The notes beneath the pieces are model-generated. The model was not told the origin of the DNA. It ran no database searches and was given only the letters and a program-made list of their open reading frames with translations. The position numbers and the translations under genes are program-made. A DNA stretch of 59,298 bases from an uncultured delta proteobacterium (GTDB taxonomy: Bacteria; Desulfobacterota; Syntrophia; Syntrophales; UBA8958): the NCBI GenBank assembly GCA_903885795.1, contig CAISJV010000026.1, positions 1 through 59,298 of the forward strand. The letters are read 5' to 3'. Below, in pieces: positions 13,920 to 19,381 of the stretch (the stretch's first letter is position 1; every line of letters begins with the position of its first letter).

Positions 13920-16103
13920 TCAGATAACTAGAAAAGACAAGAGAATTATCGCACTGACAATCTGGACGGGAATATCGAGTCCCGTCGCCGGAATCAGGAG
14001 CAGTCCCCCGAGGATCGCTCCTGATCCGCCGCCGATAAGATCAGCGGCGTAGAGTGGGGAGATCAGGGAGGGCCCTTCTGTGGCATCGGCAAGGGTGGCG
14101 TAGGCAAAGAGGGCGCCCGTAAAAAAGCCGGTAAAAACAAGCAGGCAGGCCATGAGAAGTAATCCGGCGCCACCATCCCGGATGAGGATAAAGTAAATAA
14201 GTATCGTCAGGGTAAAAAATCCCCCCAACAGCACCCCGCCCCAGCGCCGATTGGGAAGGGAAAGGCAGCGTGGCAGGAGAATGGCCCCCAAGGCCATTCC
14301 GGCCATGAAACATGCGATCAGCAGGCCGATATCCTGGTAAAGGGCGCCGTCTTTGACCTGGTAATGAAGGAGCAGTACATTTTGCAGGATCATCCCGCAA
14401 AAGCCGGCCACGCCCGCCAGGAATATACGTTTAATAGACGGATAAGATCGGGCCAGGAAGAAGGCGCCGGCCATGACTGCCAGGGAAAGCAGGACGGCCG
14501 GCAGGGGTAGGGTGACGTCCAGGAAAGAAGCCCGGGGGAAAAACTTGGATAGCCAGATCTGGAGTGTGTACCGGTAACAGACAGGCTGGATGTCGCTGTT
14601 GGGGGAAATGACAGTTGTCTCCAGGATCTGCCTGATCTCCTGAAACCGGTCGTTGGTAAAGAGATAGTTGATAAACGGCGGCCGCACCATGCGGGCGGAA
14701 ATCTGACGGGACTGCCAGCGCACGATGAGGGGCGCCGCGTCTTTGGCCAGGGGAGTTGCAGCGGCAGTGACAATGTTTGTTGTTCCCGGCAGGAAGAGGA
14801 CGTGGGGGAAAACGGACTTTAACGCCCCGTAGATGCTGGTCATGCGGTACGTCAGGGGCAGGGGCCAGATGTTTTCGGCCGAGCGGAGTCGCAATCCCAT
14901 GACGCCTCCGGGATGGAGCCGGGCGGCACAGGCCTGGAAAAACTCCCGGGTGTAGAAGCGGTTGGTCTGTCCCGATGCCGGGTCCGGCATGGCGACGAGG
15001 ATCAGATCATAGGCACCGCTGTGGCGCAAAAAATCGCGGGGATCGGCAAAGATCAAACGGACCGGTGGTGTGGTCAGGGACCTCTGTCGCTGCGGGGGCA
15101 TGTGTCGTGACACCATCTGGACCATTTTTGAGTTGAGTTCTACCACATCTATCTTCTCTGCCGGATGTTGCCGGAGGGCCTCCACCAGCCCTTCCGTTCC
15201 CCCGCCCAGCAACAGAACCATACGGGGATGGGGATGCTGTAGCGCTATCAGGTGGGCGAAGGTTTCTCCTTCCGTACCTTCCGTTTCAAAAGACAAAACG
15301 TCGTTTTCAAAGACCGCCGCCTGGCCGGACAGACCGGTAACGGTGATCCGTCCGTAAGCTGTATCCTGACTTTCCACAATGTGAGGGTGGTTCCAGCCGA
15401 TTGTCTTCCGATCCAGCCAGGACGTCCAGTTAAGGGCGACAAGGCAGCATACGGATATGATAAGGGCCAACTTCCAAGCCTTGGAATGTACCAAAGGTCT
15501 CGACCTTTCTGTTTTCCTCAGGAAGATCAACGGGGTCAAGGCGATAAAAGCGCTGCCGAGCAGAGTTGCCGATAAAACGGGGATATCAAATTTCAGGAAG
15601 AGGGTGGAAAGGATGCCCCCGGCCAGGGTGCCGAGACTTTCGATACCGTAAGCCAGAGCCAAGCTCCTTTGAGATCTTTGAATTTTGTCATTACTCTCCC
15701 TTTCCTTGTCCGGATTTTCATTGATATAAATCGTCGCGGCCAGGGGAAAAAGGAAACCTGCCAGCAATCCGACGGGAAAAAGAGCAAGGATCGGGACGAG
15801 AAGTTGTTGATAAAAAAGCAGATATGCCCCCGGAACGCCTGCAAATATCAATCGGCTGGCACGGATGCAGAAGACGTCAAGAGGAAGGAGAACCGCAAGG
15901 CAGAGAAAAGCGAAGGTCATGGCCCCAGCCGTGGCGATGCGATAGCGACTGATCATGGCCCCAGCAGCAGTGAAGAAAAGCCATATGCCCAGAGCGAAAA
16001 GATAAATCAGCTCCACGCCATAGAAGGCTACGGCAAGTTCCCGGAGGAGAATAACCTGGATCAGGAGGGAGATGAGGCCGATATTGAACAGGATTAACTG
16101 CAT
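13920..16103 (-). CDS. Membrane protein with spermidine-synthase-like methyltransferase domain
   Basis: This 727-aa protein has three parts. Residues 1-225 hold about six membrane helices, beginning LILFNIGLISLLIQVILLRELAVA. Residues about 240-450 form an aminopropyltransferase-like Rossmann domain with VLLLGGGTEGLVEAL (297-310), the acidic VELN (321-324) and YDLILVAMPDPASGQTNRFY (365-384). Residues about 520-727 hold a second set of roughly seven helices. Fused membrane/SpeE-like proteins of this layout are common in anaerobes and are often annotated as spermidine synthase. The polyamine-site residues are not clearly conserved here (PDPASGQ in place of the usual D-x-DP-x-GP), so the substrate is open. 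Confidence 0.8.
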   Translation of the reverse strand: MQLILFNIGLISLLIQVILLRELAVAFYGVELIYLFALGIWLFFTAAGAMISRYRIATAGAMTFAFLCLAVLLPLDVFCIRASRLIFAGVPGAYLLFYQQLLVPILALFPVGLLAGFLFPLAATIYINENPDKERESNDKIQRSQRSLALAYGIESLGTLAGGILSTLFLKFDIPVLSATLLGSAFIALTPLIFLRKTERSRPLVHSKAWKLALIISVCCLVALNWTSWLDRKTIGWNHPHIVESQDTAYGRITVTGLSGQAAVFENDVLSFETEGTEGETFAHLIALQHPHPRMVLLLGGGTEGLVEALRQHPAEKIDVVELNSKMVQMVSRHMPPQRQRSLTTPPVRLIFADPRDFLRHSGAYDLILVAMPDPASGQTNRFYTREFFQACAARLHPGGVMGLRLRSAENIWPLPLTYRMTSIYGALKSVFPHVLFLPGTTNIVTAAATPLAKDAAPLIVRWQSRQISARMVRPPFINYLFTNDRFQEIRQILETTVISPNSDIQPVCYRYTLQIWLSKFFPRASFLDVTLPLPAVLLSLAVMAGAFFLARSYPSIKRIFLAGVAGFCGMILQNVLLLHYQVKDGALYQDIGLLIACFMAGMALGAILLPRCLSLPNRRWGGVLLGGFFTLTILIYFILIRDGGAGLLLMACLLVFTGFFTGALFAYATLADATEGPSLISPLYAADLIGGGSGAILGGLLLIPATGLDIPVQIVSAIILLSFLVI

Positions 16104-16245: not shown

Positions 16246-16503
16246 TCATTTGAGGCTGTAATTCTTCGCGATAATTTCCAGGATGGCCTTTCTCTCATCC
16301 ACTGATAATATGAGTCCACGAGCTTCCATACCGTAGAGCTGACGTTCCCATTCCACCATGGGGCGCTTTTTTTGATAGACTATTGATGATTTATGGCAGG
16401 TGGAGCACTTCTGTTCGATCAGTTCAGGTTTGCTCGTGCATCCCAGGAGAAGGACCGGGATAATTGTGAATAGACTGAGTCGACTACACAATAAGTTTAT
16501 CAT
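16246..16503 (-). CDS. Small CxxCH lipoprotein, possible monoheme cytochrome c
   Basis: This 85-aa protein has a signal peptide ending in a lipobox (VLLLGC, Cys22), then CSTCHK at about 33-38, which is a CxxCH heme-c attachment motif. The remaining 45 residues are helical and charged and contain MVEWERQLYGMEARG. A Met-rich stretch could supply the distal ligand, as in small cytochromes c. It should be anchored to the outer or inner membrane, facing the periplasm. It lies downstream of the Memo-AMMECR1/AmrS-like pair on the same strand, separated by 64 bp, so it may belong to their operon. Confidence 0.75.
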   Translation of the reverse strand: MINLLCSRLSLFTIIPVLLLGCTSKPELIEQKCSTCHKSSIVYQKKRPMVEWERQLYGMEARGLILSVDERKAILEIIAKNYSLK

Positions 16504-16567
16504 AAATTCCTTTTTGATGGACGCCTGACAAGAGGAATCACTTTATCATTGATATGTCATTAGTTTT

Positions 16568-18103
16568 TTACTTGAATTCGGACTCATGAAATACAATTGC
16601 CTGGAATGTCTGGAACTCCGCCCCTGTACGCCAGCTCCCCTTGGCAAGTCCCGCCTTCATGCAAAGCTGATCGAGCATCTCTTCCCGGCTCCAGCCCTGC
16701 TCGGTTGCCACTTGGGGAAGAAATACAGCCCCGGCCCGGCCTTTCTGGAGGAGGACGCCATCTCGGCCGACAACGATATCTTCCGCACTGGGAACAGATT
16801 TCATCGGCGTCAGGACGGATAATTCGATTTCGATATCCTTCACCTCGTCAATGGTTACGGGCCGGAAACGAGTGTCGTTGAGGGCGGATTGAATGGCCAT
16901 TGCCCCCACAAGCTGGCCGAGAGGGGCCTCGGGGATGAGACGTCCAATGCAGCCTCTCAGATTTCCAAATTTTTTCAGGGTGACAAAGACGCCGCGAAAT
17001 TCCTGCACGGCCGGAGAAAACCCTCTGGCCAGAGGGACTGTTTCCGTCGTGAGATAGCGGGTGATCGTCTTTCTGGCCAAGGCGAGGAGGGCTTTTTTGT
17101 CTCCAGGTTGGAGCTCACCCGCCGTACCGGAAATCGGTTTTACCACCGCCGATGGGTGAGGCACGTCAACGGTCATGGCCACCGCTCCATAACCTACGAC
17201 CCGGGAACGGTCTCCGATGGCGATATCTCCGGAGTTGGCGTAACTGACTACCTTTCCCGCCCTAGCCCCCATAACCTTGGCCGCAGCCATAGCAGTGAGA
17301 ATGGGACCTTCGCCACAGGCCACGGTATGGAGATTCGCAATCCCCTTGTTCATCAGGGCTTTTATGGTTTCCTGAACCAGTTGCAGATCAAGGGAGGCAA
17401 TGGCGGCCAGGAGCGGCAGATCCACGGCGACAGCGTCGCCATAGGAAGGATAGTGGGAGAGATCGGAACTGGCGACAATAAGGGCATTTTTGCCTTTAAG
17501 AACCTTGCCCAGAGCCTGACCAAAGCGTTCGCAGAGGTGCGCGTCGGGGGTGCCGATGATCACGGGAACGATCTTTGCTTTGGGGAAAACTACCTGGATA
17601 AAGGGGACCTGGACTTCTACAGAATGTTCATCCCGATGTGGAGCGGAAGTCAGGAAGCAGTCCGGGGACGCTGCTTTCAAAGCTTCCACGATTGTCCTGT
17701 CAACCCGGGCAGTCCCCAGGGGGGTTGCGAAGCCATCACCGGGGTAGAGGGCGATCTTGTTGAAATGGGGGGTTGTATGATTCGTGCCGAGAATCACCAC
17801 GGTATCATAGCTATGACTGCGGGCCTGGTTATAGCCGTCGGCGGCGATCTGTCCCGAGTAAATGTAGCCGGCGTGGGGCAGGATGAGGGCCAGGGGCTTG
17901 AGCGTCGCTACCGGATCAGCATCCTCAAGAAAACCGGTTATGGCGGCCTTGAGAATCACAGGCGACTCTGAATAAAACTTTCCGGCGACAGCGGGGGGAC
18001 GAACGGTATCCATTTCCGGTTCCTTTCTGGCTTGAATAACCACGGCAAAAGACATTAAAAGAATAATAAGGACCAAAACAATGAGAACGTAGCTTCTCTT
18101 CAT
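16568..18103 (-). CDS. Memo (AmmeMemoRadiSam B) fused to AMMECR1 (AmmeMemoRadiSam A), with N-terminal export signal
   Basis: This is a fused two-domain protein of 511 aa. A GGAG six bases ahead favours ATG 18103 over GTG 18115. Residues 1-23 (MKRSYVLIVLVLIILLMSFA) form a signal peptide or membrane anchor. The Memo domain spans about 30-300: VRPPAVAGKFYSES, ILPHAGYIYSGQIAADGY, HSVEVQVPF and VASSDLSHYPSYGDA carry the conserved metal-site His residues. The AMMECR1 domain spans about 330-510 with the invariant core NLRGCIGRL and DTRFRPVT. Fused or adjacent A and B proteins with a radical SAM partner define the AmmeMemoRadiSam system, whose chemistry is not settled as far as I know. The export signal is unusual. 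The partner gene lies 39 bp upstream. Confidence 0.9.
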   Translation of the reverse strand: MKRSYVLIVLVLIILLMSFAVVIQARKEPEMDTVRPPAVAGKFYSESPVILKAAITGFLEDADPVATLKPLALILPHAGYIYSGQIAADGYNQARSHSYDTVVILGTNHTTPHFNKIALYPGDGFATPLGTARVDRTIVEALKAASPDCFLTSAPHRDEHSVEVQVPFIQVVFPKAKIVPVIIGTPDAHLCERFGQALGKVLKGKNALIVASSDLSHYPSYGDAVAVDLPLLAAIASLDLQLVQETIKALMNKGIANLHTVACGEGPILTAMAAAKVMGARAGKVVSYANSGDIAIGDRSRVVGYGAVAMTVDVPHPSAVVKPISGTAGELQPGDKKALLALARKTITRYLTTETVPLARGFSPAVQEFRGVFVTLKKFGNLRGCIGRLIPEAPLGQLVGAMAIQSALNDTRFRPVTIDEVKDIEIELSVLTPMKSVPSAEDIVVGRDGVLLQKGRAGAVFLPQVATEQGWSREEMLDQLCMKAGLAKGSWRTGAEFQTFQAIVFHESEFK

Positions 18104-18142
18104 GACTTGCTCCACTATACTTGCATCTCTATCCCTGTTTCT

Positions 18143-19381
18143 CTATGTCCAAACGCCGGCGATCCTCCGACGGCAGAAGGCACAACGACCTTCTTTGATA
18201 TGCATCTCTTCAAGGAAGAAGCCCATGCGTCTGACTACCACTTTTTTACAGCTTGGGCAATAGGTGTGATTACCCGGATGGTTGGGGACGTTGCCGACAT
18301 AAGCGTAATTCATTCCTCTGGACATGGCCATTTCTCTGGCCCGCTCCAGTGAGGCCACCGGGGTTGGCGGAAGATTCAGGAGCTGATAATCGGGGTGAAA
18401 GCGGGTAAAGTGAACCGGCACATCGGGACCTGTCTCGGCAAGAATCCATTCGATCAGCCCTTTGAGCATATCATCGGAATCATTGAGAGTCGGGACCACG
18501 AGATTGACAATTTCCAGGTGCACTTTTCTCTTGCTGACCTCTTTGATGGTATTAAGAACCGGCTTTAATTCCGCCCCGCATACATTCCGGTAAAAGGGTT
18601 CGCTGAAGCCCTTGAGATCTATTTTAACGGCGTCGAGGACATGACACATCTCCAGCAAGGGCGCCTTATTCATGAAGCCACAACTGATGATTACGGGGCG
18701 GAGGCCATGCTTTTTTGCCTCTCTGGCGATATCGATGAGATACTCGGTGAATACGGTAGGTTCATTGTAGGTAAAGGCGATGATCGGGGCCTTCCGGAGG
18801 TGGGCCGATCTGACAATAAGGGAAGGAGGAGTATAGGTGGTTTTGAGATCTTCCGGCCAGGTCTGGGAGATTTCCCAGTTCTGGCAGAATTTGCAGCTCA
18901 GGGGGCATCCAGCGGTGGCCAGGGAAAATGCCGCCGTTCCCGGCAGGAAATGATAAAATGGTTTCTTCTCGATCGGATCGACATGAATGGAGACTGGACG
19001 TCCATAGACGAGACTCCGGAGTTCCCCGCTGACATTGACACGAGTACGGCACCGACCACGCTGGCCATCTTTTATAATACAGTTCTGAGCGCAGAGGAGA
19101 CATTTGACAAGGTTTTCTTCGTGATGATGGGATTTACCTTTTGCGGTGATTGCACCGGAGTGGCAGCTTTGGCAGTCCTTGCCGGCCAGGGGAATGGAGG
19201 TCCAGAATCTGGCCCGGGGGGCCTGGTGGATCAGTTCGCCACTGGAATCGGCAGCCAAAGCCGTTACAGCCAAAGTTAGGGGAGGAGGAATGATCTGGGC
19301 AAGTCCGACCAAGGTGGCAATCTGTGTGATGTTTGTCAGGAGGTTGCGTCTTGTCAACATGGGTATTATTCTACTCTCCAT
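18143..19381 (-). CDS. amrS: AmmeMemoRadiSam system radical SAM enzyme with Tat-like signal and CxxCH motif
   Basis: This 412-aa protein begins with a twin-arginine-like signal (MLTRRNLLTN, then a hydrophobic stretch to about residue 45). An extension holds CQSCH (70-74), a heme-c-type CxxCH motif. A Cys-rich segment with Cys94, Cys97, Cys101 and Cys111 (CLLCAQNCIIKDGQRGRC) follows. The radical SAM cluster is CPLSCKFC (Cys159, Cys163, Cys166). The C-terminus has a zinc-ribbon-like CPSC...CAFC pair. The core matches pyruvate-formate-lyase-activase-like AmrS enzymes. The start could be the first ATG (no ribosome site) or ATG at 19360; both keep the RR motif. Radical SAM enzymes are normally cytoplasmic, so the Tat-like signal is odd. 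Confidence 0.85.
   Translation of the reverse strand: MESRIIPMLTRRNLLTNITQIATLVGLAQIIPPPLTLAVTALAADSSGELIHQAPRARFWTSIPLAGKDCQSCHSGAITAKGKSHHHEENLVKCLLCAQNCIIKDGQRGRCRTRVNVSGELRSLVYGRPVSIHVDPIEKKPFYHFLPGTAAFSLATAGCPLSCKFCQNWEISQTWPEDLKTTYTPPSLIVRSAHLRKAPIIAFTYNEPTVFTEYLIDIAREAKKHGLRPVIISCGFMNKAPLLEMCHVLDAVKIDLKGFSEPFYRNVCGAELKPVLNTIKEVSKRKVHLEIVNLVVPTLNDSDDMLKGLIEWILAETGPDVPVHFTRFHPDYQLLNLPPTPVASLERAREMAMSRGMNYAYVGNVPNHPGNHTYCPSCKKVVVRRMGFFLEEMHIKEGRCAFCRRRIAGVWT

Follow-up and report, generated by a model that had tools for sequence, protein, structure and literature searches.

A predicted exported form of the AmmeMemoRadiSam system with a spermidine-synthase-like membrane partner in an uncultured delta proteobacterium

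Radical SAM enzymes are regarded as cytoplasmic because they need S-adenosylmethionine (SAM) and strongly reducing electrons. What, then, would such an enzyme do with a signal for export? The question is raised by contig CAISJV010000026.1 (assembly GCA_903885795.1) of an uncultured delta proteobacterium of the Syntrophales, the window of 59,298 nucleotides considered here. Four genes lie on its minus strand, in order of transcription: AmrS, the radical SAM member of AmmeMemoRadiSam; a Memo-AMMECR1 fusion; an 85-residue lipoprotein with a CxxCH motif; and a 727-residue membrane protein with a spermidine-synthase-like domain. A sequence-only reading of the window had described the first three as an apparently exported set, with the lipoprotein as a cytochrome feeding electrons to a periplasmic radical SAM enzyme. 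The observation is real and stronger than was stated, with one part removed (the lipoprotein) and one added (the membrane protein). We consider it moderately probable that the locus encodes an exported AmmeMemoRadiSam variant with a membrane partner that supplies or handles its SAM, because three separate export or outward signals are conserved, because of the gene order and the co-occurrence of the genes across genomes, and because the catalytic motifs are intact.

Assignment to the system follows from adjacent genes that exceed the curated cut-offs of all three family models. AmrS (18143..19381, minus strand), in the form with a signal for twin-arginine translocation (Tat), scores 367 bits with TIGR04337 (cut-off 220). 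The fusion (16568..18115, minus) matches Pfam Memo and AMMECR1 and scores 245.7 bits with TIGR04336 (cut-off 26) and 167.6 bits with TIGR04335 (cut-off 99). AmrS is a radical SAM protein by both motif and fold, with a CxxxCxxC motif (CPLSCKFC; 18884..18907, minus), a match to PF04055 of 55.1 bits and an AlphaFold2 model (pLDDT 85.3; confident in the core, of low confidence in the linker) whose nearest fold in the PDB, by Foldseek, is the pyruvate formate-lyase activating enzyme 3cb8. Two genes had been overlooked in the sequence-only reading: the membrane protein (13920-16103), and another AmrS gene without a signal, located elsewhere in this genome (G000:C6:62474-63439), whose product is 42% identical to that of the window.

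The wider occurrence of this AmrS was followed in 111 loci drawn from the window's own genome, 40 related genomes and a contig scan (best 80 of 578 relatives); the 31 loci from genome searches carry flanks of only ~1.5 kb. L001 is the window itself, six loci (L003, L004, L005, L006, L007 and L011) were omitted as copies of others, L014 and L074 went unscored as their N-termini are missing, and a core-cutting rule removed L042 and L078, both with Tat motif and CxxCH, from the tree. This tree, of 101 core sequences, was built by a quick method with Shimodaira-Hasegawa-like approximate likelihood ratio values as its sole support. The window's clade holds 62 rows, window included, with support 100: 44 have a Tat motif and CxxCH, 17 a Tat motif without CxxCH, and one (L076, labelled "none" in the tree) is cut by its contig at the N-terminus. 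Of the remaining 39 rows, 23 have a Tat-type motif but lack CxxCH, 14 are ordinary AmrS proteins without signal, and two (L091 and L109) have no signal although they sit closer to the exported groups. CxxxCxxC, followed by QN, is kept in 101 of 101 rows. Judged from record titles and NCBI ranks, the clade extends over Thermodesulfobacteriota, Acidobacteriota, Calditrichota, Bacteroidota, Latescibacterota and others, although its members are mostly metagenome bins and single placements may be wrong.

Near its N-terminus AmrS has MLTRRNLL, in which TRRNLL (19337..19354, minus) is the twin-arginine motif. Translation probably begins at codon 8 (19360), because the relative L032 (the same locus as L003) has a stop just upstream of that codon. 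The motif is followed by a hydrophobic stretch and then by ALA|A, a cleavage site judged by eye. RR stands in 60 clade rows and KR in one (L061), and so in all 61 that can be read, with a hydrophobic stretch after each, weak in L070 (0.95); four rows (L016, L017, L018 and L070) were assigned to the Tat type by hand for the tree. Among 36 aligned clade members the second arginine is invariant and the first nearly so (K in L061). KR replaces RR in four outer rows (L096, L097, L100 and L106), and the motif occurs in none of the 14 ordinary AmrS rows. A TatC gene is present in the window's genome, so that signal and machinery are found together, as expected for a Tat substrate.

Some neighbours of Tat-type AmrS genes carry signals of their own. 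In L098 another radical SAM gene, itself with a Tat-like signal, adjoins AmrS on the opposite strand (L098:4439-5572, minus; Pfam Radical_SAM 53.9 bits), and similar-looking open reading frames (ORFs) were seen by eye in L096, L100, L102 and L106, the Pfam scan having covered L098 only; exported radical SAM proteins may form a wider class. DUF362 genes (Pfam) lie directly upstream of Tat-type AmrS at L092:4531-5673, L094:4750-5766 and L105:4825-5769 (all plus), two of the three with a Tat-like motif at their start. Tandem Tat-type AmrS matches ~1 kb apart were recorded on five contigs (G161:C91, G080:C12, G044:C31, G121:C42 and G145:C6).

The Memo-AMMECR1 fusion, which probably starts at the ATG at 18103, was aligned in 67 rows, in which the window is counted twice (WIN and L001) and the outer groups contribute few. 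A hydrophobic N-terminal segment, the signal or anchor segment of the sequence-only reading, is present in 61 of 61 readable rows (again with the window twice), and a loose lipobox pattern in 20 of them. The catalytic positions are kept as well. The available text of PMC11081632 gives the iron ligands of human MEMO1 as H49, H81 and C244; the matching alignment columns read H in 62, H in 64 and C in 66 of 67 rows, and what remains are gaps, one X and one R. The AMMECR1 cysteine is present in 65 of 67 rows, with two gaps. That reading had named a lack of conservation of the N-terminal segments among close orthologues as grounds for its rejection; they proved conserved in both AmrS and Memo-AMMECR1, and because of this the export of the two proteins, as predicted from their sequences, is strongly supported.

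A third signal comes from the membrane protein (13920..16103, minus; Pfam Spermine_synth). Its AlphaFold2 model, made from 33 sequences (pLDDT 90.3, predicted template modelling score 0.91), consists of seven helices, a soluble domain and seven further helices. The bias of lysine and arginine places the N-terminus inside and the domain (residues 240-530; 14514..15386, minus), inserted between helices 7 and 8, outside the cytoplasm in all 46 close rows (the window among them) and in all 20 distant homologues. Compared as a whole, the model aligns with SV2A over 334 residues (Z 23.0, root-mean-square deviation 3.7) and with NorC over 328 (Z 19.6, deviation 4.3). By sequence, no Pfam match to the major facilitator superfamily (MFS) was found in it, and NF037959 (fused MFS/spermidine synthase) scores 18.3, below its cut-off of 40. 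The domain itself has the aminopropyltransferase fold (PF01564; top Foldseek match 1uir, TMt 0.74). In the available text of PMC10349129, binding of decarboxylated SAM is ascribed to the acidic residue of GxG(D/E)G. That residue is non-acidic in all 46 close and all 20 distant rows, and the gate position is Asp in two of the 46 and D or E in two of the 20; the signature of an aminopropyltransferase is thus missing, and polyamine synthesis by the membrane partner was set aside as unlikely.

Could the N-terminal segments of AmrS and Memo merely be membrane anchors, with the catalytic parts remaining in the cytoplasm? Hydrophobic N-termini can anchor, and radical SAM chemistry depends on SAM and on electrons of low potential, both of which are normally cytoplasmic. 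Yet the AmrS segment fits the Tat consensus S/T-R-R-x-F-L, with the arginines on the N side; the lipobox pattern found in a third of Memo rows would put that protein outside, and the charge bias of the partner places its domain on the same side. With these three observations against it, anchoring is a distinctly improbable explanation.

The genes are also linked. Memo-AMMECR1 lies downstream of AmrS in 52 of 57 named loci (53 if L079 is included, where Memo sits within a long overlapping ORF) and the membrane gene in 44 of 57; the contig ends within 1 kb in at least four of the other 13. Eight of those 13 genomes were searched, and seven have the membrane gene elsewhere, G188 being without it; a Memo match was found in nine of nine genomes searched, weak in G193. 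In the complete genome of Desulfonema magnum, a Memo gene without fused AMMECR1 stands just before the membrane gene, at a separate place. Beyond the loci, 148 genomes of the phylum were surveyed with thresholds of E up to 1e-95 for Tat-type AmrS and up to 1e-30 for the membrane gene. The former was found in 52 and the latter in 53: 49 have both, three AmrS only, four the membrane gene only and 92 neither. Counted by family, 29 hold both genes, out of 32 and 32. To see whether this AmrS threshold selects Tat forms, 27 newly fetched loci were inspected, and 25 of them have the motif (L140 is without it, and L141 begins at a contig end). The two genes lie within 10 kb of each other in 23 of the 49 genomes and not in 26 (G131 added by hand), although contig ends in drafts can hide adjacency. 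In a close relative, a homocysteine S-methyltransferase/MTHFR gene lies between Memo-AMMECR1 and the membrane gene (L033:7988-9814, plus); it suggested SAM recycling at first, and the same gap in L035 holds an ORF of a different kind.

Does the export of Memo follow that of AmrS across the phylum? Searching with the Memo fusion could not tell exported pairs from cytoplasmic ones, many matches reading through a stop, and for that reason N-termini were read instead, in 26 of the 31 genomes with Tat-type AmrS and a Memo match (the five excluded being of the window's type) and in all 19 with a Memo match and no Tat-type AmrS. Some signals were called by eye (L195 and L205). In genomes with Tat-type AmrS, Memo has a signal at 24 of 25 readable loci, L183 being unreadable; in those without it, at four of 19 (L195, L197, L205 and L207), with L189 borderline. 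G059 (L205) and G072 (L207) are among the four genomes in which the membrane partner occurs but Tat-type AmrS does not. As far as N-terminal sequences tell, the partners tend to be exported together, with exceptions.

How might such a set work? AmrS would acquire its fold and its clusters in the cytoplasm and then be carried over the membrane by Tat, while Memo-AMMECR1 would be exported via Sec and, in some relatives, retained as a lipoprotein. Both would act on the outer face beside the 14-helix protein and its outward domain. With a possibly MFS-like fold and an external fold of the SAM-binding type, the membrane protein could deliver SAM outside or hand it over, and AmrS would cleave SAM outside the cytoplasm; in the window's type, the electron could reach AmrS via a linker-borne heme c of its own. 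Memo, through its Fe(H,H,C) site, and AMMECR1, through its RGCIG loop, may act on one shared substrate. In the simplest view the set faces outward and its close partner handles SAM there: the partner may either transport SAM to AmrS or be another SAM-dependent enzyme with the same substrate. AmrS is closest to glycyl-radical activases, and a protein target is for this reason possible; the RGCIG loop of AMMECR1 would be our guess for it.

A more modest role would be that AmrS is exported for a single use with pre-bound SAM, or as a mere iron-sulphur electron carrier, without multi-turnover SAM chemistry outside. Tat moves folded, cofactor-loaded proteins, and we know of no external pool of SAM. 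Against this stand the radical SAM motif, maintained intact across several phyla, and a tightly associated partner with a SAM-type binding fold predicted to lie outside; we hold the more modest role to be quite unlikely.

Where would the electron come from? Between the signal and the radical SAM core, the linker of AmrS contains CQSCH (19160..19174, minus), a candidate heme c attachment site already pointed out, together with the twin-arginine-like signal, in the sequence-only reading; both are indeed there, and CxxCH recurs in 44 of the 62 clade rows. HHH (19121..19129, minus), shortly before the first core cysteine, offers a candidate distal ligand: a histidine 5-9 residues ahead of that cysteine is found in all 44 rows with CxxCH versus three of the 17 without (L013, L049 and L062), L076 being excluded from the comparison. 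An N-terminal cysteine motif is present in most AmrS rows, and the pattern suggests a bis-His heme c beside it. The association of CxxCH with the histidine traces to ~4 changes on the tree, which makes it suggestive and short of proof; a sign test of independence had two pairs on starred branches, or four on all branches, too few for significance. Genes for heme c ligation, of CcsA type and ResB, are present in the window's genome, so that motif, predicted export and ligation genes, the sequence hallmarks of a c-type cytochrome, coincide. With CxxCH and the nearby histidine, AmrS may plausibly carry a heme c of its own. A genome whose AmrS has CxxCH (G004, 92% complete) gave no ResB match. The same C-C-H-H set can bind zinc, and the linker is flexible in the model, so that zinc or another metal in place of heme c has to be considered; the spacing is exactly that of CxxCH, however, the protein is predicted to be exported in a genome with heme c ligation genes, and loss of the histidine tracks loss of CxxCH, though over those few changes only. 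We regard a metal site as unlikely.

The electron donor first proposed was the lipoprotein (16246..16503, minus), a small, monoheme-c-like protein with a lipobox-like LLGC and CSTCH. It lies nearby on the same strand, as had been noted, and its ORF is real. Membership of the set is another matter: the 111 AmrS loci yielded no significant relative, though those with short flanks could not all have shown one, relatives occur in only three of 41 genomes, own included, and in G007 the relative adjoins a different radical-SAM-like gene (L113, by eye). The survey for its co-occurrence with Tat-type AmrS that had been suggested thus came out negative, and the lipoprotein was rejected as a conserved part of the set; that it is the dedicated donor of a periplasmic AmrS is very improbable. 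Of the interpretation offered from sequence alone, the export of AmrS and Memo-AMMECR1 stands and the cytochrome lipoprotein as electron feeder falls.

Several points weigh against the exported, SAM-supplied variant favoured here. No supply of SAM outside the cytoplasm is known to us in bacteria. The signals were judged from motif and hydropathy, not by a trained predictor. Some AmrS proteins from near groups (L091, L109 and L140) lack the Tat motif, and one genome with Tat-type AmrS has a signal-less Memo (L174). The co-occurrence of AmrS and membrane gene in the 148 genomes gives a Fisher p of 1.3e-30 with relatedness ignored. In G007, of the window's own genus, the partner is only a fragment beside Memo (L074:3621-4040), and AmrS and Memo persist there. 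The heme is not general either: because CxxCH is missing from 17 of 61 readable clade rows and from all 23 outer Tat rows, it would not be required for the exported state, and the idea that its loss tracks loss of cytochrome c maturation is unsupported, G023, G025 and G033 having no CxxCH and keeping ResB and CcsA-type genes. The fullest form of the proposal, radical SAM chemistry outside the cytoplasm in several phyla, with SAM brought by a transporter-like partner and, in one large clade, the electron by a built-in heme c, is accordingly put forward as a tentative idea that we hold to be rather doubtful.

Were it true, a conserved exported set would overturn the cytoplasm-only view of radical SAM enzymes and demand some way for SAM to leave the cytoplasm. 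Memo and AMMECR1, an unexplained pair with relatives in humans, would gain a new partner and a cellular place, making their function easier to probe. A 2019 paper in J Biol Chem, cited in PMC7159879 and reportedly on the PCAD-Memo superfamily, may hold related observations. In the literature searched, from which most subscription papers were missing, no description of an exported AmrS was found, nor any phrase for a periplasmic or exported radical SAM protein; the available text of PMC10924467 mentions a single radical SAM gene, and that merely as a neighbour.

Which known systems does the set resemble? The nearest solved structure to AmrS in both fold and sequence, the pyruvate formate-lyase activating enzyme (3cb8, 3c8f), aligns over only ~250 core residues. 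That enzyme is cytoplasmic and has neither signal nor CxxCH linker. The membrane helices of the partner align over ~330 residues with SV2A and NorC, both MFS-type structures, and the partner has no MFS match by sequence. SV2A carries an inserted domain on its lumenal side. The domain arrangement recalls NHMT, described in the available text of PMC10349129 as a fungal seven-transmembrane N-terminal histidine methyltransferase that acts in the endoplasmic reticulum on secreted proteins. By that published description, and not by sequence comparison, the two share seven helices ahead of a spermidine-synthase-like domain and the loss of the acidic residue of GxG(D/E)G (PMC10349129); the seven-transmembrane part is reported there only in fungi, and the bacterial protein has seven extra helices after the domain. 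The closest system remains AmmeMemoRadiSam (TIGR04335, TIGR04336, TIGR04337), with the same three parts and with its radical SAM, Memo-ligand and AMMECR1 motifs conserved here. From its ordinary form the present set differs in the export signals, the fusion of Memo with AMMECR1, the CxxCH linker of AmrS and the spermidine-synthase-like membrane partner.

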